Assembly: GCA_013399855.1 (NCBI GenBank)
Contig: VXAY01004089.1
Span: forward strand, 1,159,342 to 1,223,341
Direction: 5' to 3'
DNA from: Oxyruncus cristatus
Lineage: Eukaryota; Chordata; Aves; Passeriformes; Cotingidae
DNA: 64,000 nt
Part shown: piece by piece, positions 531 to 21,333 of the stretch
Layout of the letters: every line of letters begins with the position of its first letter
Position numbering within the stretch: position 1 is the stretch's first letter
The notes under the pieces: generated by a model
Database searches by the model: none
The model's input: the letters and a program-made list of their open reading frames with translations, nothing else
Told to the model about the DNA's origin: nothing
Program-made: the position numbers and the translations under genes

Positions 531-1182
531 GTGGTGCCCAGGCGGGTGGTGAAGGTACCCAGCTGGGCAGTGAGGGGCTGCTGAGGGTCCCCAGGAGGGT
601 GGATGTTCCCTGCAGCCTCCCTTCAAGACTATCTGGATTCACACCTGCCCTGATCAGCCCTTCAGGATGGAGGTTTGCTCAGGAGCCTTCCTTTTTTTTG
701 CTAAAATTCCCTGCTCTTTTTGCAACCTCCACCTCAGGAAACCCCAAAAACCCCCAGCACTAAGTGGGGCAGTCGCCCACCCTGTTACACATCTGTGAGG
801 GTGGCATTGGCTATTTTTCACTTTCTAAGAGATGCTTTGCCTTTAAAAACCAAAGTGACATAAAGTTCTCCAGGGATTCATCGTCTGAGAGAATAACTTA
901 AAGCAGAAGAGGCAGAGCAATTCCCACCAACATATAAACCAAATCTGTGCAAAGCCTGAGCTTATTCCCAGCCTATTTTCTACCTTTCACATTTAACCAG
1001 AGTCCTCACACAGCCTCATCCCTAGGATTCAGCTAAGCTGGGATCCATCCCATATTTTTGTATTTACATATATACATGTAAATTTATATTTTTATACCTA
1101 TATACATAAATATACATACATATATATAAACTATACTATGAAACTGAGTCAATGACCCTTTTTAATTCCCTTTTTTACACAG

Positions 1183-3762
1183 GAACTCGGCACCCTGGGA
1201 TTTGAATGTTCCCTTGAAGAGGTCGATCTCGAGGATATCACTAAGAACCAAATAAACACAATAAAAGCTTGCACAGCTGAAGATCCAGGGGTAAAAGATA
1301 TAAATATATATATATAAAAATTAAAGTTTCAGCCTATATTTTCATGGAACAGACATATAATTCACACCATCTTGTTTCTGCTTTAATTTGCAGACTGGGA
1401 ACTGTCCAGCACTGGAAAGATCAACTTTTGATAAGGTAAATTGCAAATTTCCCACAGGAATCCCTCTTTTTTTTTCTTTTGCTCATTGTGGGTTTAGCAG
1501 CAGATTCCCACATTTCCTGCTAACTCTGCCCTTCCCAGAGTAAATGCCTGCAGGGCATCTACGAGGATCTGAGAGCCTACAGGAGAGAGCTCAACAACTT
1601 CAACGATCACAAAGTGCTGGCAACTCTTGATGAGATGATGAAAGTGAGTTTTTTCCTGCCTCCTTCCTTCCCTCAGAGCCCTCAAAAATAGAGTAAATAC
1701 AGAACAAACCTCAAAGATGGAGTAAAGACAGAATAAAAGGGACCTGGCTCTATTCCCCTCCCAAATACTGGGATATAACACACCCGGGGGACTGAATGAA
1801 TGGATGGAGCTTTGATAAATATTAGTGAGTAGAGAAAAGAGATGTTAAAAACTTGCTTGTTTAATGAAAGCTAATTAAAAGCCCTTAATTAATTGCCTTT
1901 GTGTTGGCACAGCGTCTCCCAGCAGAGCCTGGGGAGATAAGTCCAGTCCAAAGGGTCTCTAAACAAACCTGGCCATGGGTTTTTATTCAAACCAATCCTT
2001 GTTCCCGGGCAGAAAGAGCCTCTGAAGGGACAATTTTGTCCTAGGGCAAGTACAGCTGTCCATCCTCAGCCTATTAATTATACCATTATTTCCAATTTTA
2101 TCCTGAGTCTGTTGATAATATCATAGAATATTTCAAGAGTTATCCTATTAGGTACATTATTTCAAATTTTATCCTGTGTCTAGTAATTATATCATTAAAT
2201 ATCTAAATATTTACCCTCTTAATTATAACCTTAAATATTTCAACTTTTATCCCATGTCTAGTAACATCATTCAATACTTCAAAATTTGTCCTACTCTAAC
2301 ATTAAATAGTTCTAGCTTTTCCCATTTAATATCTCAAATTTTATCCTATTAATATCATAGAATACTTCAAAATTTACCCTATTAATTATAACATTAAATA
2401 GTTCAACTTTTATCCTGTCCAGTAATGGTGTTATTAAATATTTCAAAATTCATCCTATTCTAACATTAAATAGTTCAAGTTTTTCCTATTAATTACATTC
2501 AATATTTCAAATCTGATCCTATTAATGTAACTGAATATTGAAAAAATGACCCTAATAATTATAACATTAAATAGTTCAAATTTTATCCCATGTCTAGTAA
2601 TATCATTCAACACTTCAAAATTTATCCTATTTTAACATTAAATTGTTCAAGTTTTTTCTATTAATTACATTCACTATTTCAAATCTGATCCTATTAATGT
2701 AACTGAATATTGAAAAAATGACCCTAATAATTATAACATTAAATAGTTCAAATTTTATCCCATGTCTAGTAATATCATTCAACACTTCAAAATTTATCCT
2801 ATTTTAACATTAAATTGTTCAAGTTTTTTCTATTAATTACATTCACTATTTCAAATCTGATCCTATTAATATCATCGAATATTTTTAAAATGACCCTATT
2901 AATAATAACATTAAATATTTCAACTTTTGTCCTGTCTAGTAATGGCATCATTAAATATTTCAAAATTCATCCTATTCTAACATTAAATAGTTCAAATTTT
3001 TCCCACTAATTACATTTGATATTTCAAATTTAATCCTACTAATATAACTGAATATTTCAAAAGTTACCCTTACTTACAACATTAAATATTTCAACTTGTA
3101 TCCCATGTCTGGTAATAGCATTAAATATTTCAAAATTTGTCCTATTCTAACATTAATTAGTTCGAATTTTTCCTACTAATTACATTCAATATTTCAAATT
3201 TTATCCTATTAATATCATTGAATACTTCAAATTTTACCCTATTAATTACAACATTAAATAGTTCAACTTTTATCCTATTAATATCATTGAATATTTCAAA
3301 AGTTGCCCTACTAATAAGTTACCCCATTAATAAGTTACCCCATTACATATATCAACTTTTACCCTCTGTTGTTACTTATTTTATTCCCTCAGTAATAATT
3401 ATTTTATTCCCTCAGCAATTTGAATTATTTCATTATATTCAAATAATTCAAAGTTCCTCCTCGGCCCATCCCTGACCCAGTGAAATACTTCCAGTGTTTC
3501 ACTTACACAAACGCATCCTTATTCCCAGATCTTACCCTTTTTCCATGGGGGGTTTTTGGGTGGAGTGGTTGTAACCAACCCCTTTTCCCTGGGCCAGGCC
3601 CTGAACAGCAGCCGGAACGTTCCGGAGCCGCCGGCGGGAGCAGCACCGGAGTCATTCCGGGACAGGTTGCGGCTCTGCCGGGTCCTCCAGGCCCTCCGGA
3701 TCCGCTCCGTCACCATCTCCAGGATGATGAACTTCCTGAGCTCCCCGGAGAGCTCCCTGTGA
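1183..3762 (+). CDS. IL12A: Interleukin-12 subunit alpha (p35), last four coding exons
   Basis: IL12A encodes the secreted four-helix p35 chain that pairs by disulfide with p40 to form IL-12 (and with EBI3 to form IL-35). Coding segments are 1183–1290, 1394–1435, 1539–1643 and 3598–3762, all phase 0 with AG acceptors and GT donors, giving 139 residues and a TGA stop. Landmarks match mammalian p35: TLGF...[10 protein letters not shown] in the first segment, then a Cys (IKAC) at the position that in human p35 bonds to p40; [13 protein letters not shown] in the third; and ALNSSRNVP followed by [19 protein letters not shown] (final helix) in the last. The first two helices, the signal peptide and the promoter are upstream of the window. 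The last intron is long because of an AT-rich tandem repeat. Naming is secure from the C-terminal helix; no frameshift or stop is seen. Confidence 0.93.
2040..3470. repeat. AT-rich tandem repeat with a 172-bp higher-order period
   Basis: About 1.4 kb of the last IL12A intron is built from diverged short units rich in TATTAAT, CATTAAATA and TTCAAA words. The word ATCTGATCCT recurs at 2511, 2683 and 2855, exactly 172 bases apart, and the intervening sequence between these copies is nearly identical, so a larger unit has been duplicated in tandem. Confidence 0.85.
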
Positions 3763-4379: not shown

Positions 4380-6224
4380 TGCAGAACTAAAGCTGTGGTC
4401 TCTGCTCCCACAGACCACCCCCATCCCACACCAAGTTGTAAGGCAGGAGTAACTCACACCTGGGTGCAGCTGGAATGCTGAAATTCCCTCCAAGAGCTGG
4501 GCAAAGCCAACCTAAACCCCACAGAAACACACTCTTTTTTTTTAAAGTTTCTTGATTCTGATTTACAGCACCTGAAGGCTGAAGACCCGACTGTCCCTTC
4601 TGACCCTCAGCATTTCAACCACCCACCTTATTTCCAGCTTGGATTTACTCATTCCTGCTCCGGACCAGGGAGCCCTGTTAAAGATTTGGTGTCTTCATTG
4701 CCCTGATGGCCATTTCCCCCTTCTCATCCCAGCTGCAGGAGCCAAGGGCAGTTCCACTGGGGTTGGGGGAACCTCCCTCTACTTTTTTTCTTCCCCACCC
4801 CCCCAAAACGCCCCATGGCAGAAGATCCCATGAGGTCCTTGAGCACCATTTCCCTCATCCACCCCCTTGGATGTTGCAGCAGCAGAAGCATCAAGGCTTG
4901 GAGAGATGGCAACGACCTCCCACCACTTCATCCAGCAGCTAAAATCAAAAATTAAATCCAAAATCATCTGTAAACCGTGTAAATGGTTCCTCTTTAATCC
5001 TTATTTTTTTTTAAGTGTGCCTTTTCTTCCATAAACACATTCAGAGGAAGGTGATACCAAGCATCCCGTGTCCTTAAAAATCAGACAATCCTGGATCAGG
5101 TCACCGCTCTCTTCCGCGAATCACATTATTCCCAAATCTTTTCCAACTCAGTAGCATGTGGGGGGCCTTCCCGGGGATTCTGGCTCCTCCCATAGTAGTT
5201 TAAGCACCTAATTCGAGTTAAAATGAATCAAGTAAAAAGTAGAAAAATTTTCTCATACGAAAAAAACAAATTATACAACGTAAAAAACCCTTGTCTCATA
5301 AAAATACAGACTATACAGAGAAGAGTGGAAAAGAAATTCCCAGGGAAAATTCCAAGCTGCCTGGAGAACGTAGTGGTGCTTCTGCAAAATCAGTCTTTGG
5401 AATTTTAGAGAAGAGAACCACAGCTTAACAAGGACTGAATGTACAGGACTATATACAGGAAATATATATATACACAGTGATTATGCAAAGGAATTTGTCT
5501 GCAAGCTTAGGATTATCCTTCCTGATCTTGGACATCCAAGAGAAATCCAACGTACCTCCCGATTCGGGCAGTTCAATACGGCTTTTCAAGGGGATGGAAG
5601 TTCCTGTGTAACTTTTCTCCCTGTTTTTCCCTGATGTAAATGGAAGTATTTTCCAGGTAGCGATCCTGGAGCGAACGATTAAACCTGGTTTCTTCCAGTG
5701 TTCCCATCTTTTGGGAGTGGCTCAAGTGAGGTGCCAGTGGTGGCACTCCCTGTGGGTGAAGCCTGGAGGTGTCGGGATCCGCCGCTCCTGGAAGTCTTGG
5801 AAGTGGTTTATACCCAAAATTTCATTTACGTTCCTTGAGAGGATCCTGCCTAAACTTTCCTCTGTGCGATGCTGCCTTTGCATCGTCCTTCCTGAATCCC
5901 AGCAAGATCCCAGAGGAGCAGGATGGCTGGATGGGGAAGCTCCCACTGCCTCCTTCTGGCTGCAGGCCCTTCCAGCTCAGCACTGGGCCGAGAAACCTGA
6001 GGGAAGGAGAACACACAAGCACACGGGGGTTATCCGAGCTCTGGAAGTCACTGCAACGTTCAAGGAGAACTAGAACTGCATTAAAAAATATTCCCGGTGA
6101 ACAATATGTGTATTAAACCCCCCCGAGGCAGCACAAGGCTGGGCACAGACCGGTTCGGGAGGCACAGCGGGAGCACGACCAGCTCTCCACCCTTCATAGC
6201 CAGGTTGTTTTTAGGGAGAATTAG
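4380..6224. other. Intergenic region between IL12A and the FIIND/death-domain gene
   Basis: No gene is recognised. The sequence is unique-looking and moderately AT-rich, with scattered T runs near 4545 and 5005. On the − strand, 5452–5721 is open for 90 codons without an ATG before its middle and contains a good donor-like GAG|gtacgt at 5556; it could be a 3' UTR or an unannotated exon of the − strand gene, but nothing proves this. Confidence 0.5.
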
Positions 6225-7045: not shown

Positions 7046-10000
7046 TCAACAAACCCAGAGGGAGATACCTTGCAGCATTTTCTCCAGCTCATAGGACCCT
7101 TTATCACCCAGACTCCTCTGCAGAGCTTCTGCAGTGCCATTGCTCTGTTGTCTGTCTCTCCACTTCCTCAGCACCAGGAATTTTTGCATGTTGACTTCTT
7201 CCTCCATGGCCTGAATCTCCTCGATGTCCTTCATCTCCATCTCGAGGCACTCGATGGCGATTTCCCTCCACTGCCGCCCGAACTGCTTCGCAACCACCAT
7301 CAGCTGCTGGTCCGTCAGGGTTTTTGTTCCAATTCCATCTGAAAAAACACGGATATCCTTCCTAATAGCCAGCCTAAACCTTCCCTGGCACAACTTTCCC
7401 CTCCTCCTGTCCCTGTTCCCTGGGAGCAGAGCCCGACTTCCCCCGGCTTCCCCCTCCTGTCAGGGAGTTGCAGAGCCAGAAGGTCCCCCCTGAGCCTCCT
7501 TTGCTCCAGGCTGAGCCCCTCCAGCTCCCTCAGCTGCTCCTGCTGCTCCAGCCCCTTCCCAGCTCCGTTCCCTTCCCTGGACATGCTCCAGCCCCTCAGT
7601 GTCCTTGTCATGAGGGGCCCAGAACTGCCCCAGGATTTGAGGTGTGTCCTTCCCCAGTGCCCAGCACGGGGGGAAAACATCACTTCTCTGGTCCTGCTGC
7701 CTCAGCATTCCTGATGCAAGCCAGGTGCCATCGGCCTCCTTGCCCCCCTGGGCACATGCTGGCTCGTGTTCAGCCACTGTCGACCACCACACCCGGGTCC
7801 TCTTCCCATGGGCAGCTTTCCAACTGCTCTTCCCCAAGCCTGGAGCATCCCAGGGGGTGATTTGTGGAAGTCTTAAAATAAGTGAGCTCAGTTTCACAGG
7901 ATCACAGGATGTGCTGAGCTGGGAGGGACCCACCAGGATCATCCAATCCAACCCTCAGCCCTGCGCAGCCCAGAGTCCCACCCTGTGCCCCAGAGGATCA
8001 TCCCAACCCTCCTGGAGCTCTGGCAGCCTTGGGGCTGTGCCCACTGCCCTGGGGAGCCTGGTCAGTGCCAACCACCCTCTGGGGGAAGAACCTTGTCCTG
8101 AGATCCAACCTGAGCCTGCCCTGGCACAGCTCCAGCCCTTCCCTGAGTCCTGTCCCTGGTCCCCCCAGAGCAGAGCTCAGTCCTGCCCCTCCTCTGCCCC
8201 TGCCCAGGCAGTTGGAACTGCACTGAGGTCTCCCCTCAGTTTGAGAGGACACAAAAAACCCCAAACTCATTGTTTTAAAGGACACACAGAGGTTGTACCT
8301 GCAGTGCCACCAGTCTTTTGCTTTTTGCTACAAAGTCCCTCTTCTTCCAAAATGCTGAGGGCTAGTTTCCTTTTTTTGACACCTGGGAAGGAAGCATGTC
8401 ACTTGTGTCACATCTCCTGAGCTACAGGAGCAAGGAAGGGGCACTGGGACAAGGCCCCCCAACCCCAACATCTCCAAACTGACTTACTGCCTGTGCTTCT
8501 CTTCTGCTCGTTCTTGTTCTGATCATAATGCATCCAGTCCCCTGCAAAGAGTTGGCAGAGGAAACAAAAGGTGAGGGAGGAATTCCCAATTTTTATGCCC
8601 AACCTTCAGTGATACTCAGGCCCAAACCAAAGCTGTTGGGTGGATTCCAACCCCTGAGAGAAGGTTTTAGATAATGAGCTTTTTTTTCCCCTTTTATCCA
8701 ACGTGCTGCAGCACGTCAAAATATGCAACAGAACTGTACGTTACAGTGCAGTAATTTGCAAAGTTATATTACATATGCACTGAATAATATATTATAATGT
8801 GTAGTAATATGCAGGGGGGTTGGAAGTATCATTCCATGATTCCCTGAAGCCCAAAGACTCACGTTCTCGGAGTTTTGCTTTCCAGACAGTTGCATCAGAG
8901 TCCAGCTCAACCAGAGACAAGGTGAACTCATCAGGTTTCTCCACATACACTTCAATGTAACTCTTTAGTTTCAGGAGTGAGCCATCAACAAATTCAATTT
9001 CCTATACAACGTAAATATTTTAAAAATCAATATTTACTCAAAACATAAACTAAAGAGGAGGCGACTGGGACAGAGCCCAACTCCAATCCCCGCAGAGTTC
9101 TGCTGTTGTGGCACCCAGATTTCATCCCAAAATTTTAGGGCTCTAAGAGGCAAATAGAACGTGAAAAATGGCCTTAATGCCAGTGCAGGAATGAACAGGA
9201 AAAGCCTTTTTGGGCCATATTTCTGTGAAGCTGCACTGCAGGAAGTGAGGGTCATTTAAGGGACCTACCTCAGGAGTTATTTCAGCTTCTGGCTCACAGA
9301 CCAATCTGTACCTCTTTCCATTCTGTAGTAACTTCTGGCACACAGGGGGTTTGTCAATCTTGACAAATTTCTTGTTTGAATGTTTGACAGCCTTTGAGAT
9401 GTCCTAAAATTTAAAAATATGGTTTCGAGGTTACTCATTTCAGCAAAGAAATCAACGTTTCAAACCTGCGTTCACGGGGGTGAAATGAGACGAAAGAGTT
9501 CGCAACCCTGAATAAAAGGAGGGTTTTTTTATCCCCGGCCTCACTTTATCAGGGTGAATTAAAGTCATGTTTCTGACACAGCTCCTGCCCAGCTAGATCT
9601 GAATCATCAGTACAACACCAACTTCCCAATTATCTTTCCATTGCAAGGAATTCTGTAAAGCTGTAATTTTATCCTGCCTTAGTTCCACGTCCTCTCTTTT
9701 CTCTCTGCTCTGTTCTCCTCTGAGGTAATTTCTGACGTGATCTTTGGCAGCAGGAAGACTGGTGGCATGTGTATGCATTCATTGTCAGCTGCCTTCCCAA
9801 ATTCTCAGGTAATTTTCTGTGGGAATGTATAAACTTGTACAGGTCTGGGATGGCCTCTATCAAAGCAAATAGTTTGCCTTAATGTCGAATGTCTCTTTGT
9901 CTGAACGTTGAATTGTCTCCATGGCAGATCACACTGTTGCTGCTGACCTGCCACATCGTCTGTAGGCATTTTTAGGTGATTTATGCAAAACGGACGTGAA

Positions 10001-13000
10001 AAACACAGCAGTGGAAAAGGTTATGAGGAGCTTCCTGAAAATCCTCTGGGTTAGCAAACATTTCTGTCAGTACCAGATACTGCAGGGGTTAATTAGTGGA
10101 ATTTGTGAGAAGAGCTGAAGCAGGAAAGTTGGCCAATGTATTACTTGAATATCACGCACCTTGGCCAGGATAATTACTGAAATACCATGCCCTAACTTGG
10201 CACATCTCAGCACAGAAGCCTCATTATAGAGAGATGGGTATCTTTGCATGCAAACACTGAGGTGAGAGAAGGGCATCCCTCGGAATCCCCACCCCCGGGG
10301 AGTGTCCCAGGCCAGGTTGGACAGGGCAGCCTGCTCTGGTGGAAGGCGTCCCTGCCCCTGGGGGACCCAAACCAAAGCATTCCATGATTCCACCCCCCGC
10401 CCTGTGGTGAATCTACACCGTCCCACCCAACACGGGCCGTACCTTTATGAAGGAGTCGTTGTTCGTCGCCACGTAGACCCGGAAGGACAAGGAGGGATGT
10501 TCGTCCACGGCTTTGTAGAGGATGACAGCTCCGTGGTACTGCACAGGCTCCTGGCTCTGGATGAGGGGCCCCACGGGCGACAGGGAACTCACCACCCACC
10601 TCACGTGCGAGGCCGAGTAGGCGGCGGAGGGTTCGATGGCCGCGCCGCCGCCCTTGACGTGCAGCACCTTGAAGGCCATTCCGGCACCATGACCTGGGGA
10701 CGGCGGGGCTGCTCAGCACCTCCTGCGGCAGGAACAGCACCCTCCCACCTCCCACTCGCCCCGGGCACTCACCGCCGAGGCACAGGGAGTGCGGGAACTG
10801 GATGGAGGTGAGCGCGGGGGCAGAGTCGCAGCGCACGTCGAAGAGGGGCCCGCCCACGATCCATAGCTTTTGCACCAGGCTGGCGAACTTGCTCCAGGAT
10901 AACAGGGAGTAGGTGATCTTCACAGAGCCCGTCACCTCGAAGATCAAGCCCGTGACGCTGCACTGGTAGGTCCCCTCTGCATCCAGCTGCACCCTGGGGT
11001 GGGCAGAGACACGTGTTGGCTTGGCTTCCACTGCCAAAAAACTCGGTGGAAGTGTGGGTTGTGTGGGATAACGGAGGAACTCCCTTCTCAGCAGGCGCTG
11101 AGCACTTTATCTGACCAGCACAGGAGCCCCAACAATGTTTTTGTCTCCTGCCCCTGTGTTTTAGCTGCCACTGGACTGTTAAAATGCCGGCAGGACCCAG
11201 CCAGTGTAGGAAAAACTGATGTAATGGGCATTTTGCATAATATTTGCCAGTGTTTTAACAGTGTAGGAAAAATCCTCTAATATTTGCTGCACGAGGCAGC
11301 TGCTGGAACACAAAAGGCTCAGACTCAAGGTCAGAGCCAGCACTGCACAGGGACAACTTCAACATCCAACAGATGCAGAATACCATGGACACCAGCATCC
11401 CACACTGATGAAAATTCCAAAGCAGAGAGAGGGAGAACAAGGCTGGCATCCAAGAAAAAATACAAGGTCAGTGCTAATGGGGAGGATGAGGCAAGATCTC
11501 TCATGCGTGTCCAGACTAAAATTAGCACGTAAAAATGTGCCTGATGTTTAATTACAGCAGCAAGACGAGGCAGGAAACCTTCCTAGGAGTTTTTCTTGGA
11601 CCAGGATCTGGAGACAACACAGGCAGCTGCTCTAAATTGCTTATTTTTAAGGATTTGGGGATCTCTTCCACTATATCTTCAAACGCATTTGTGCAGCAAG
11701 TTACCACTTTCCCACTTAAACCAAAGACTGAAGCGTCTTGGTGAGAACAATGTAAATTTATACCCAATATATTAAAAGAAATCCATACATAAATTGTCCT
11801 CCAGCAAGTCTCCTAGGGGTCACTTCCTCCTTCTGGTCCTATAAATACACGTACGAAAAATACATCTTTAAAAAGGCGGAGAGAGGGAGGAATTACAATT
11901 TGCAAATTATCTCATGCAAAATACATGAGTTGGGTTTTTTTTTCTTCTAAACCTACGTTTTCATTTCTGCAATGCTCACAGGACGGCAGGCAGTTCTCTC
12001 CTAGTGGGAAAAGAGGAAGATGAGCTCATTAAAAGCAAAGTAATTAAACAGTCAGGGGGAAAAAAAAAAACCCCTCCGGAGATCTGTTGCTACCTGATTC
12101 ATTGCAGCTCGGTGGAGATTCCTTCTCCTCCTGTTCCTCATCTAGAAAAAAGAAGTTTGCAGCAAATACCTCAGTCTCCAGCAGGTTTTTTTTCCCTCCA
12201 TTTAATTTGCTTAAATTCATAACATTTTAAGGAGAACATTCCTCATTCCCCCAGGACAACCCTCCCCAGTTTAATTTGCTTAAATGCATAAAACCTTAAG
12301 GAAAACATTCCTGAGACCGAGTCTTTGAACAGCGCGGGGATGAAGCTGAACATCAGGATACAACTTTTACCAAAAGCTCAGAAGTTGCCCAAACTACTGG
12401 AAATTTTCACAGGGGTTAAAAAAAAAAATATTCCTCCCCAGGATGAGCCTCGTTGTTGCCAAGGCCAAAGTTCAACCAGCCGGCCCGGAAACCACAACAG
12501 GGAGCAGGGAAAAGACAGATGCAAATAGGCTGTTTGAAGTGTCTTTGTCCCTAAAATGATTTGGAAGTGCCTGGATCCTCCTTGGTGATTCCCAAATGAC
12601 TGAACGGAAGAGGAGCCGACACCTCAGGCTCATAGCCCGGAGGGGGGATTTTGGAGAAGGCGGGTGGCGGAGCCGCTGTGCTGAGCGTGAGGACGGGCTG
12701 CTTCCCATCCCAGCATCCCAAGGAGAGGGACCCTGGAGGGAGGCTGTGCCAAAGCCATCCCAGGACCAACACCCTCTGGACAGGCAGAGGTGGGAGAGGC
12801 AAAGAAGGTCCTGCAGCAGCAACAGCCTGGCAAATATCAACCAACGCCGTCGGGCGCTGGCTGCTTCCTAAGCCATTGCTCTTCCAGCCCCTGGAGCTGC
12901 AGCAGGGATTGGAATCACATCAGGAACACCCACTGCACATGGAAGCTCATTCCCCCTGTGCCCCCCCCTTCCTGGGGAAGCTCTCCAGCAATCCCAAGAC

Positions 13001-16000
13001 GTGGGGGTGATGGCAGGGCCAGCTCTAAATCCCACATCACCCCTCCTGCATCACTTATCCCGGGTGGCTTCCTCACACTGTGCAGGACAAACACAAAGGA
13101 CACAATAAAACCACACTCCCTGACCTTCCTCCATCCCACTCCTCCACATCAATGAGGGAAAACATTGTAATTGTTTAACTCAAGACTGATAGTCTTGCAC
13201 AAAACCAGAATAAACTGCTGGAGGCACAACCTGTGGAAGTGCAAACCCACCAGTTTTTCATCAACAGCTTCCTTTAATTCTTTTCCTGTCCATCCTGTTT
13301 TGCCAGCTTTGCTGCCAAGTTTTAAGGAAATTTATGGCCTCGTGGTGTTTGGACAACTACTGTGCCATAAAAACAACCGTGGGTATCGTGTCTGAGAAGT
13401 GAAAGAAACACGAGCTGCTGCTCTTCGATCACTGATTGGAAATCACTGGCTCCCAAAAATATCATTGGAAAAGCAATCTCTGGGTTAACATTTTACAATA
13501 ACTGGGAGACTATTCCCAGGAGAAGCAGCTGGTTTAAACTGAACATCAGTCTCCAGGGAGAGATAACAGGTAAATCACAACGTTATGCTCACCTGACTCC
13601 TCCTCTGAGCTGCTGCTGGAGCTGCTTTCGGAACTGGCCTCTCCTTAACAAATTAACACCCCATTAGGCACAGGTGGAATGAATCCAAGGATACATCCAG
13701 AGGTTTGGATACATCAGGTGAGTCAGCAGGTTACATAATATAACAGAGCAGAAAAAAATACTGAGGCAGAGAAGAGCATCAAATCCCGGCACAGTGGCAA
13801 ACTTTGGGGTCACCTAGGCCCTTCCAAAGGGTACCTGTGGTGTTCAACATACGGGATGTTAGTGCTTTATACAACCTGGGGTTATTTTGGAGCTTCACCC
13901 ATGGTACATCCCAGTTAAATTATGGTTTTCCATGGCATGTGTGTAGGTGGGAGAGGCCTCGGTGGGAGCCGTGTGTCCCACCAGGGACGTGACTGTGTGG
14001 ATGCACCGAACGTGGCTTCAATAAACTATTCTTACAAATGCAAGTTGAAGAGAAACCGGCATTGGAAAGTAAGGGGCGTGCTTTGGGACATGCTTCGTGG
14101 GGAAATCTGGGATGCAGGGCTGGCCTCACCAGCCCAGGTGTGAGGAAAGCCCTGAGCCCCACGAGTGCTCACCCGCCAGGTGCTCCTCAGTGGAGCCCTC
14201 CCCCTCCGTGCCACTGGACATCACCTCTGCAAGGGAAAAGCAGTCAGGGAATACAAGTTTGAAAAAGATTTGAAAAAGCTCTTGGCAAATTTTGCACTCA
14301 GCAGCTCAGAGAAAGGGAATAAATAGCAAAGGATTTTAGAAATCGGGATAAACAATCAAAACCCATCCGCAAACTCAGGTTTTTTACAGCGCGGTTTTTA
14401 AAGCCAGCGCTTATAAAATTGCCCTTTCCCTTCCAAAGGAATTGCACAAAATCCCTGTACCTTTTTCATCCGGAGAGAGGGACTCGGCTCTGCTGGAAGA
14501 CAAAAGGAGACACACGAGTAGATCTTGCTAATCCTTTTCCTGTGCTTCCACAGGAGCAGCATTCACCCCCTCCCGCCCCTGGCATCACTCCCAGGCTCTG
14601 GCCAGCAAATCGCAGGCTGTGAGGTAACTTGGGAGGGGGGGCTGGTGGTTAAATATTAATTTTCTCCAACATCTCCCCCGGCCCTGGCTCTGTCCCGGCC
14701 CTTCCTGGGCCGCCTGGCTCTGCTGCACGTGATTCCCAGCGGCCCCTTTCTCCAAAGCCCGGCACTCGGTGCCAAGCGCACGATGGATTTGGCAGCAATC
14801 CAGCCAATCCCCAGCAAGGCACAAAGCTCAGATAAACACGGTGGCTGGGATGTGCCAGAGAATCCAACAGCCCCATCACCCACTCGTGGCCTGGGGCAAA
14901 TTCAGGCCAACCTTCAGCCTCCACTCACCCTTAACAAGGGAAAATCTGCTGAGTTTATCAAGTATGGACAAAGATCCGGTTTGGAAACCTTTCCCTGGAG
15001 CTCCACAACATCTGTCATGCAGCTCCAGCAAAGCTGTGCGGAGGGAGGGAACGGCCCTGGGTGCAGTCACCATAAAGCAGTAGGTGACATCCAGCTCTCC
15101 TGCACTTTGGAGGCACCAGCAATATCCCGAGGGGAAGGTGGAACAGCAGCCCTACACATGCAGGCAGGGAAAAAGCAACTACGCCTTTGCTTCTTGGCGA
15201 TGCCAAGGGATGCTGCTGATGGTGCAGCCAAGATGTGGGAGTTACTGTTTGGCAGCTCAGCCCAGGAGGCTGATTTTGGCCATCCCAGGCTGCCACTGCA
15301 TCCACCACCCGTCTGCTCCGGGTCCCAGCTCCCAGGGTGCATATGGAATGAGTGGTCAGAGCCCCGGCTGCTGCCACGCTGGGGCACTCAAACACAAAAC
15401 TGAAAAATAAATGAATAGGTGGTAATCACAGAGGCAGGAAAATCAACCCCTAATGATTGGATTCCTAAGGAAAGGAAGGAAGAGATGCAAGCTGGGAGGT
15501 CCTGGGTGCAGCACAGCAGAGGGGTTGCCCCATTATGGAGCTGGAAGTTGGTAGGTCAAGGGCAGGAAAAACTGGGAAAGGGTCCCCCCCCCCCGCCACA
15601 GGAAATTACACAACAGGGTTTGCGCTGCCAAACTGTATCTTAAAACAAATAAATAAATAGTTATATATATCAGCAATATTTGGACAAAGCCTGGATATTC
15701 TCCAGGCACGGCACCCGAGGCAGGATTTGTTTGTGCAGCCCTTCAACCCTTCCACCAAGCGCTGGCTTGCTAATGTGGGTGTGCTTAAATCACTTTGGTT
15801 TGGCTTCTAACCCCTCACAGCTGCATTTCCCGCCACCCGAGTTGGAAAGCACTCAAGGAGGACAGGAAGAAAACAAGAGAGAAAGTCAAAAAACACACGC
15901 GTCGTCCGCGCAAGTGTTAATGGAAGTAATTGTTCACATGTTAATATTAAACGCAGCAGAAAAAAAACGTGCTGCCGCCCCTGCCCTTCCCAGCCGGAGG

Positions 16001-16846
16001 ATCCCGGTGGGAGAGGGGGTTCCCAAGGCCCGCTGGAGCGTGAGATGGGGAGATGATAAACACGAAGATAAACACGATCGCTGCTGGCGGCGCAGCTGCC
16101 TCGGGTTGCGGCAACACATAACGGGAGCGGGAGCCCGGGGGCTCATCGTCTGCAGCTTCATCCCTGCCCCCGGCTCCTTCCCGGCCCTCTCGGGGCCGCC
16201 GGGCTCTGCCGCACACGAGTCCCAGCGGCACAAGCCCCCGGGCTCGGGGGAATCGGGGCGGAGCGCGGCCGGGCCGGAGGATGCCGGGGGGGCGCCGCGG
16301 GCTCGCCCGCCCGCTTTTGTCTGCCCGAGGAGGAGAACGCGGGGACGGGGAAAGGCGGGGATCCCGCGCAGATGCACGGCCGGGCACCAAGACCGCCCGC
16401 GGGGCTGGTTGTTTGGGAGGGAAAGGACATCCCGTGCTCGGTGCGGGATGCGGGGGGGGACGCGCGGGCCTGGGGAGGGGGCGGAGGAGGGGCTTGGGAT
16501 GGAGGAAACAGAAGGATGCCGAGGGATGCAGGTGGTTTGGGGGATGGGAACGGGGCTGGAAGGATGCTGGGGGATGAGATCGNNNNNNNNNNNNNNNNNN
16601 NGCTCGGAGGACATCGGGAGGGCTGGGGGTGCAGGGGAGCATCGGGAAGGGCTGGCAGGACATGGGGAAGGGTGCGGGGGGACAAGAGCGGTTGGGGTGG
16701 CCGAGGGACGGCGGGGAGTCCCGGGGCTGGCGGGGAGGGCCGCGGGAGGATGCGCGGGGCCGGGTGGAGCCCGGCGAGGGGACAGCCGGGTCCCCAGGAC
16801 CCCCCAGCCCCGCTCACCTGTCGGGCTCCTGCCCGCGCTCCGACAT
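7046..16846 (-). CDS. FIIND-like (ZU5-UPA) protein with C-terminal death domain, 11 coding exons
   Basis: Coding exons on the − strand: 16818–16846, 14461–14492, 14173–14226, 13593–13643, 12094–12141, 10773–10976 (or 10993), 10443–10693, 9269–9403, 8863–9001, 8488–8541 and 7046–7338, giving about 429 residues. The start MSERGQEPD sits in a CpG island. Residues 1–71 are acidic and Ser/Glu-rich (for example SSSSSSEEES). Residues 72 to about 320 align by eye with the FIIND of NLRP1/CARD8: WIVGGPLFDVRC, FRVYVATNNDSF, KKFVKIDKPPVCQKL, and a C-terminal UPA part ending ATVWKAKLRE. His169 and Leu177-Ser178 match the FIIND autoproteolysis site in spacing. The last exon encodes a death domain (QQLMVVAKQFGRQWREIAIE, LRKWRDRQQSNGTAEAL). 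NLRP1 and CARD8 end in a CARD, and PIDD1 has LRR-ZU5-ZU5-UPA-DD, so this layout differs from all three. I know no established name. The exon 5/6 junction is uncertain: the stronger acceptor (10993) does not match the phase, the weaker (10976) does. A role as a processed cell-death or inflammasome adaptor is inference. Confidence 0.82.
7345..7860 (-). mobile_element. CR1 LINE copy abutting the death-domain exon
   Basis: About 500 bases of CR1, in the same sense as the host gene, fill the 3' end of its last intron. Signatures include (on the + strand) CCTAATAGCCAGCCTAAACC, a TCCTCCTGTCCCTGTTCCCTGG block and GAGCCTCCTTTGCTCCAGGC. It is very similar to the copy at 20645–21215, suggesting the same young subfamily. 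It stops within a few bases of the splice acceptor of the death-domain exon at 7338. Confidence 0.88.
7897..8252 (-). mobile_element. CR1 LINE copy in the same intron
   Basis: The + strand starts with a CR1 antisense end (ACAGGATCACAGGATG...GGGAGGGACCCACCAGGATC) and continues through GGGAAGAACCTTGTCCTGAG and AACCTGAGCCTGCCCTGGCA. It is of a different subfamily from the neighbouring copy at 7345–7860. Confidence 0.85.
10297..10395 (+). mobile_element. CR1 LINE 3' fragment
   Basis: GTGTCCCAGGCCAGGTTGG, GGAAGGCGTCCCTGCCCCTG and a terminal CCATGATTCC are the sense CR1 3' end. It is inserted in the intron between the exons at 10443 and 9403, antisense to the gene. Confidence 0.85.
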
Positions 16847-17000
16847 CGCCGCGCTGATCCCGCCGCGCTAATCCCGCCGCGCTCCGCCGGAGCTCCTCCT
16901 CCCGGGGAAGGGAGGAGCCCGGAGACACGACACGGACACGCTCCCGGAGGGCGGTCCCGCCCTCCCGAGCCGGTTTGGGGGGCGCTGGGTGCACTGGTGA
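15950..17000. promoter_or_regulatory. CpG-rich promoter region of the FIIND/death-domain gene
   Basis: The kilobase around the start codon at 16846 is strongly GC- and CpG-rich, in contrast to its flanks, and contains a 19-base gap. This is typical of vertebrate TATA-less promoters. The exact transcription start is not evident. 17101–17120 holds a short TA microsatellite. Confidence 0.55.
16583..16601. other. Assembly gap, 19 N
   Basis: A run of 19 unresolved bases lies in the GC-rich first intron or promoter area. It does not interrupt a coding exon. Confidence 0.99.
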
Positions 17001-20644: not shown

Positions 20645-21215
20645 TCACAGAATCATAAAGTCATAGAATCACAGAATCACAGAATTGCTGAGGTTGGAAA
20701 AGCCCTCCAAGACCGTCAAATCCAACCATTCCCACCAATGCCAAGGCCACCACTGACCCCTGTCCCCAAATGCCACATCCACAGGGCTGTTCAACCCCTC
20801 CAGGGATGAGGATCTACCCCTGCCCTGGGCAACCCTTTCCATGAAGGAATTTTCCCAATATCCAACCTGCCCCTCCCCTGGCCCAGCCTGAGGCCGTTCC
20901 CTCTCCTCCTGTCCCTGTTCCCTGGGAGCGGAGCCCGACCCCCCCCGGCTCCCCCCTCCTGTCAGGGAGTTGCAGAGCCAGAAGGTCCCCCCTGAGCCTC
21001 CTTTGCTCCAGGCTGAGCCCCCCCAGCTCCCTCAGCCGCTCCTGCTGCTCCAGCCCCTTCCCAGCTCCGTTCCCTTCCCTGCACACGCTCCAACCCCTCA
21101 CTGTGTTTCTTATCCCGAGGGGCCCAGAACTGCCCCCAGGATTCGAGGTGTGTCCTTCCCCAGTGCCCAGCAGAGGGGGACAAGCCCTGTCCCGGTCCCC
21201 CGGCATTGCTGCACG
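20645..21215 (-). mobile_element. CR1 LINE copy, long and little diverged
   Basis: It starts with repeated AGAATCATAGAATCACAGAA-like octamers (the CR1 terminal repeat read in antisense) and continues through GTTGGAAAAGCCCTCCAAGA, CCCCTCCAGGGATGAGGATC and the TCCTGTCCCTGTTCCCTGGG block to about 21215. It is closely similar over several hundred bases to the copy at 7345–7860. Confidence 0.92.
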
Positions 21216-21333
21216 AGCCGGGATGCCGCTGGATTCGGGATAAAGGGCTTAATGAACGGAGGCGCTTTCCTGGGTGCTCCCCAGGGTGGGCGGCTCCCGG
21301 CCCCAAACCCCTTTACCGGCCACTCTCCCGGTC

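Follow-up and report, generated by a model that had tools for sequence, protein, structure and literature searches.

A 64,000-nt stretch of the Oxyruncus cristatus contig VXAY01004089.1 (the window, whose numbering is used throughout) contains, between IL12A and IFT80, an intact gene whose product joins a FIIND, that is, one ZU5-UPA module, to a terminal death domain. We assign it to a third family of FIIND proteins, termed here FIIND-DD, distinct from NLRP1 and CARD8; at the level of sequence comparison its architecture, its status as a family and its deep conservation are solid. We further propose, with a probability of roughly 0.6, that FIIND-DD is a single-copy, functional gene whose product would cleave itself and release an oligomerising UPA-death-domain fragment.

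Three domains of the final 493-residue protein score above their Pfam cut-offs: FIIND (PF13553) at residues 101-226 (4.5e-34, 117.4 bits against a cut-off of 25.8), UPA-FIIND (PF23679) at residues 230-348 (3.7e-26, 92.4 bits against 27) and Death (PF00531) at residues 408-487 (2.1e-5, 25.0 bits against 22.6). An earlier note on this DNA had read one ZU5-UPA module, a terminal death domain and an acidic N-terminus here, and had staked that reading on domain searches; these found ZU5/UPA and Death, and the N-terminus is acidic and of low complexity. Pfam matched no CARD, LRR or second ZU5 in the Oxyruncus protein; there is a single FIIND stretch, and only FIIND-type models matched, UNC5-type ZU5/UPA models being unlisted at E up to 1. 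Among 44 orthologues (alignment A1, hand-picked for length and spread rather than at random), Pfam found Death in all 44, with no CARD listed at E up to 1 and no NACHT or PYD listed in any; LRRCT_2 appeared just at E 0.022, in two of them. Several proteins (e.g. P0002, P0004, P0014, P0001) carry no precomputed Death domain in the tables; scanned directly, P0001 gave 24.1 bits, above the cut-off. NCBIfam returned one chance match, far under its cut-off. The FIIND-DD fold resembles UNC5b; that a family is missing from the fold searches is not counted as evidence.

The gene runs along the minus strand from 16846 to 5977, with 15 coding exons, 1482 coding bases, GT-AG at every intron and no internal stops; it thus reaches about 1.07 kb beyond the lower edge of 7046 given in the earlier note, which had also counted 11 exons. 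Exons 6 and 7 were found by tblastn with orthologue peptides, and exon 15 by a frame-restricted scan. Two other versions were dropped. A first model of 12 exons, with an acceptor at 10976, had an open frame and already matched FIIND, UPA-FIIND and Death in Pfam; alignment to orthologues showed that it lacked the CEHC/VTPR block (see below) and had a different C-terminus. The other let exon 14 continue as far as a stop at 7046; orthologues end in GFSAQC or alike, which exon 15 encodes. A 14-exon version is 93.5% identical to the manakin protein P0001 over 494 columns, and the rows closest to the Oxyruncus protein by tree path are those of manakin and flycatcher (tree of 41 FIIND regions). A possible objection is that the gene is an artefact of modelling or is decaying, as the small exons, the low-complexity N-terminus and a model drawn from genomic DNA and orthologues rather than Oxyruncus RNA-seq might suggest. 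We consider this very improbable in view of the 15 in-frame exons with GT-AG introns, the manakin identity and the short contigs of other species that carry the spliced reading frame; for the family as a whole the objection is already contradicted. With three domains above threshold in a single spliced frame, and with the manakin identity, chance is ruled out, and we conclude that the Oxyruncus gene is real and intact.

The spliced products in other species are proteins P0028, P0140, P0145 and P0149, encoded on contigs no longer than 1422-2236 bases; of the 14 junctions they span 7, 8, 8 and 11, respectively. They come from the source lgn, which we take to be assemblies of public reads. Their nearest relatives among the proteins compared are songbirds, Myotis and Sorex, and lizards for P0149, which is 94% identical to the skink Tiliqua over 390 residues. 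The exons covered by P0028 are spread over 5 kb in the window, and the lgn contigs are therefore best read as transcripts of other species, although a retrocopy may account for them instead.

In the tree of 41 FIIND regions (midpoint-rooted, with three CARD-type rows only), FIIND-DD stands apart from NLRP1/CARD8 at 100/100, and CARD8 groups with NLRP1. Fishes, mammals, turtles and birds are grouped largely by species kinship; squamates and laurasiatherians do not form single groups. Databases name FIIND-DD proteins CARD8, NLRP1-like, NLRP1a/1b allele n, THOC1 or uncharacterized. These names and the FIIND similarity would favour the view that the gene is simply the bird orthologue of CARD8 (or NLRP1), and the earlier note had allowed for orthology to CARD8 or to PIDD1. 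We reject the CARD8/NLRP1/THOC1 naming, and the view behind it has next to no chance of being right, being already contradicted on four counts. First, a death domain replaces the CARD in 44/44 of the picked orthologues. Second, FIIND identity is 23.0% to human CARD8, 25.6% to human NLRP1 and 28.4% to rat NLRP1, against 51.4% between human NLRP1 and CARD8. Third, the clades are separate in the above tree with its three CARD-type rows. Fourth, the bat Rousettus aegyptiacus has FIIND-DD (P0116) as well as a CARD8 that met an ortholog rule of >50% identity to human CARD8 (PMC10249858). Orthology to PIDD1 fails on the LRR and second ZU5 missing in Pfam. The name DTHD1 is not among the matches listed for three queries, and FIIND-DD was not compared directly with DTHD1.

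These queries were the Oxyruncus protein (the 12-exon version, called the bird query below; best 120 of 256 matches listed), a sloth orthologue (best 120 of 261 listed) and a 273-residue turtle UPA-DD segment (79 matches, all listed). About 8000 candidates were scored for the bird and sloth queries; the turtle query admitted candidates of ~150-478 residues, and longer fish proteins could not appear. Relatives were found in birds, crocodilians, turtles, tuatara, lizards, snakes, echidna, marsupials, xenarthrans and laurasiatherians, with whales and dogs among the last of these, and, with the turtle query, in coelacanth, two sturgeons, paddlefish and bichir. The same architecture in echidna, marsupials, xenarthrans, laurasiatherians and non-teleost ray-finned fishes overturns the earlier idea of a sauropsid-specific gene. 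The two coelacanth models both stop short of the death domain, and one of the two sturgeon records is flagged by its source as possible contamination. No primate, rodent or afrotherian name occurs among the matches listed for the three queries, and no lagomorph name among those for the bird and sloth queries; this rests on reading the names of the matches listed, where unnamed rows (sources lgn, ena, eukprot) are unassignable and 90%-identity clusters show one name. The sloth list has 74 rows above the best turtle (71 mammal-named, 3 without a readable name) and extends down to 542 bits, so that any full-length orthologue from a placental would be expected in it. Amphibian and teleost names are likewise missing among the matches listed, which does not show absence; the coelacanth protein H3AWG3 bears the zebrafish clone name si:dkeyp-97b10.3, which hints at a teleost relative, and a search of papers for that name gave none. 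In the 1.04-Gb Oxyruncus assembly the one FIIND match is exon 8 of this locus, and 14 control genomes gave zero. The second FIIND exon of the same gene was unlisted and the controls were empty, so sensitivity was limited and diverged FIIND exons could be missed. The tree and distribution fit one old single-copy gene and, should the absences hold up, its loss in part of the placentals.

We turn to whether the protein may cleave itself. Residues H188, E197 and S215 are in register with NLRP1 H1186, E1195 and S1213, with the same spacing (+9 and +27); these are the residues given as the NLRP1 triad (PMC9700037). Over 156 homologues (from the matches listed for the bird and sloth queries, isoforms and partial models included), the first position is His in 153 (Gln in 1, gap in 2), the second Glu in 154 (gap in 2) and the third Ser in 153 (gap in 3). 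Pro follows the Ser in 153 (gap in 3), so that the predicted C-terminal fragment would begin Ser-Pro, as in NLRP1. Coelacanth, sturgeon, paddlefish and bichir keep all of His, Glu, Leu, Ser and Pro. This conservation lends support to the release of a UPA-death-domain fragment that the earlier note had imagined, though the release itself we still infer.

The residue before the Ser is the one real difficulty for this mechanism: it is Leu in 152/156 (Phe in 1, gap in 3), giving SLS in place of the SF/S motif. This leaves room for a non-cleaving scaffold, in which the Leu keeps the FIIND whole and a closed adaptor is opened by a ligand. The ZU5-UPA-DD proteins UNC5b and ankyrin, for their part, are not known to be cut. 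Adhesion-GPCR cleavage sites have Leu at the residue before the cut. S297, H270, H252 and E279 of CARD8 contribute to its cleavage, which is severely impaired in the F296H mutant (PMC3210808). With the triad kept and Leu before the Ser, the self-cutting parts appear to be present and the site shifted from SF/S to SL/S. We judge the scaffold unlikely.

Conservation is uneven along the protein. Against 19 chosen mammals, with gaps counted as mismatches, the Oxyruncus protein has 80% identity in UPA, 62% in ZU5, 40% in the death domain and 28% in the N-terminus. The FIINDs of human and rat NLRP1, by comparison, share 66.8% over 253 columns. Slow change in the UPA beside a loose N-terminus would suit a conserved surface for oligomerisation or inhibition with a variable trigger in front of it, and would suit a housekeeping role as well. 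The UPA of NLRP1 and CARD8 reduces the threshold at which filaments form (PMC7794386), and human NLRP1 P1278 and L1281 are needed (PMC8081665). The P1278 position is Pro in 152/156 homologues, and the L1281 position Cys in 152/156. Just before ZU5, the CEHC/VTPR block is recognisable from coelacanth to mammals and matches no Pfam domain; exact CEHC occurs in 106/156, truncated rows counted as misses, and the block may hold metal ligands in one spot.

The linker before the death domain has two basic clusters with a Ser/Glu-rich spacer between them and looks like a bipartite nuclear signal. If it is one, UPA-DD might act in the nucleus, like THOC1, rather than in cell death. A text pattern for the two clusters matches 144/156 homologues (searched over the whole protein, with no background rate), sturgeon and paddlefish have both clusters and bichir just the first, and the closest death domain by profile is that of THOC1 (4.6e-11). 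However, nearness of death-domain sequences does not give function, basic linkers are common and the localisation is putative, read from the sequence. We think a nuclear factor rather unlikely; it is compatible with self-cleavage and does not exclude it.

Under the self-cleavage we favour, the FIIND would fold and cut itself between Leu214 and Ser215 by the triad His188-Glu197-Ser215. The ZU5 fragment, with its acidic disordered N-terminus, would remain bound and keep the UPA-death-domain fragment inactive, while DPP8/9 possibly grips the new Ser-Pro-Val-Gly end. Cutting or unfolding of the N-terminus would lead to its proteasomal removal ('functional degradation'), and the freed UPA would cluster death domains, which would recruit a death-domain partner, not ASC or caspase-1. 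Cleavage, DPP9 control and signalling we infer by analogy. NLRP1 P1214R is given as blocking UPA insertion into DPP9, although in that paper's own measurements the monomeric P1214R FIIND bound with similarly low affinity (PMC9700037). More tentatively still, and as something short of an even prospect, FIIND-DD may be a bony-vertebrate-wide autocleaving sensor that serves a death-domain pathway in place of caspase-1 inflammasomes, is restrained by DPP8/9 through its Ser-Pro end and was lost in lineages ancestral to primates and rodents. In that case dogs, cattle, bats, birds and sturgeon would respond to DPP8/9 inhibitors, or to proteases that cut the N-terminus, in a way that human and mouse models cannot reveal.

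The FIIND proteins are equated with NLRP1 and CARD8, and a third family, widespread and combining a strongly conserved UPA with a death domain, would revise the account of the self-cutting module's origin. We found no description of a FIIND-death-domain protein in the literature searched (few subscription papers and no bioRxiv covered): FIIND-DD is a variant of the FIIND kind, undescribed in that literature yet present in databases under other names, and many public 'CARD8' and 'NLRP1' records are misnamed. That no primate or rodent name occurs among its listed relatives may be why the family seems overlooked. A survey of NLRP1 and CARD8 evolution accepted proteins only if they shared >50% identity with their human counterpart and were bidirectional best hits (PMC10249858), a rule that FIIND-DD, at 23-28%, cannot pass. 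PYCARD may be lost in birds (PMC13076529), and FIIND-DD would give them a FIIND protein that does not need ASC.

The placing of the gene in the IL12A–IFT80 interval, made in the earlier note, is borne out. IL12A is on the plus strand, convergent with FIIND-DD, with Pfam PF03039 in three exon open reading frames (ORFs; Table 1). IFT80 is on the minus strand at 58381-32213 (tblastn with a human query sequence), with the IFT80-type TPR PF23387 at 5.3e-24. Near 63.5 kb lies what we take to be an SMC4-like N-terminus. Exon 1 is inside a CpG island at 16001-17000 (GC 0.73-0.74, CpG observed/expected 0.78-0.89). Upstream of IL12A, a tandem repeat at 166-763 reads as a repeated GGQFGAVV-type peptide, and in the IL12A region 2078-3475 is an AT-rich array of diverged repeats in which similar reading frames recur. 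What appears to be one interspersed repeat, presumably CR1, has two copies with very similar open frames, at 7370-7610 (in the intron between exons 13 and 14) and 20669-21248.

Table 1. Features mapped in the window.
Feature	Position	Strand	Basis
Coding exon 1, start codon 16846-16844, in CpG island	16818..16846	-	final model
Coding exon 2	14461..14492	-	final model
Coding exon 3	14173..14226	-	final model
Coding exon 4, Ser/Glu-rich	13593..13643	-	final model
Coding exon 5, acidic	12094..12141	-	final model
Coding exon 6, CEHC motif	11957..12000	-	tblastn with orthologue peptides + model
Coding exon 7, VTPR motif	11789..11838	-	tblastn with orthologue peptides + model
Coding exon 8, ZU5 part of FIIND	10773..10993	-	model + Pfam
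Coding exon 9, ZU5 end, predicted cleavage site, UPA start	10443..10693	-	model + Pfam
Codon of catalytic-type His188 (NLRP1 H1186)	10659..10661	-	alignment; position by hand
Codon of catalytic-type Glu197 (NLRP1 E1195, CARD8 E279)	10632..10634	-	alignment; position by hand
Predicted scissile Leu214/Ser215 codons (SSL/SPVG)	10578..10583	-	aligned to NLRP1 F1212/S1213; position by hand
Coding exon 10, UPA	9269..9403	-	final model
Coding exon 11, UPA	8863..9001	-	final model
Coding exon 12, linker	8488..8541	-	final model
Coding exon 13, linker, two basic clusters (nuclear-signal-like)	8299..8382	-	model + text pattern
Coding exon 14, death domain	7069..7338	-	model + Pfam
Coding exon 15, last residues GFSAQC + stop	5977..5996	-	frame-restricted scan + model
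IL12A ORF, PF03039 E 3.5e-6	1156-1317	+	Pfam
IL12A ORF, PF03039 E 9.3e-4, below cut-off	1524-1691	+	Pfam
IL12A ORF, PF03039 E 1.2e-9	3484-3762	+	Pfam

Several known proteins resemble FIIND-DD in part. Ankyrins, like MACC1 and SH3BP4, carry both ZU5-UPA and death-fold domains on a single chain, and UNC5CL has one ZU5-UPA-death-domain tail. UNC5b has such a tail too (PMC3210808); FIIND-DD differs from UNC5CL and UNC5A-D in matching FIIND-type Pfam models and not other ZU5/UPA models. PIDD1 also has a death domain after ZU5-UPA and undergoes autoproteolysis, being cleaved after each ZU5 (PMC3210808), whereas FIIND-DD has no LRR or second ZU5 in Pfam and matches FIIND-type models only. The anole PYD-FIIND protein LOC100556846, encoded beside PYCARD, is a FIIND protein of a reptile that likewise lacks CARD, NACHT and LRR, but it has a PYD, lies at another locus and is described in the available text with no mention of a death domain (PMC13076529). 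NLRP1 has the closest FIIND by profile (1.3e-26) and shares the triad positions, the Ser-Pro fragment start and P1278; FIIND-DD has a death domain for the CARD and Leu at the cut, and the Pfam scans of 44 orthologues and the position of exon 1 in a CpG island indicate that no NLRP1-type NACHT, LRR or PYD lies upstream of its FIIND. From CARD8 it differs in having a death domain for the CARD, SLS for SFS, Pro rather than Leu after the cut and 23.0% FIIND identity, but the two are alike in plan, with a disordered N-terminus, a single ZU5-UPA FIIND and a C-terminal death-fold domain without NACHT/LRR, and CARD8 H270, E279 and S297 align with the FIIND-DD triad.

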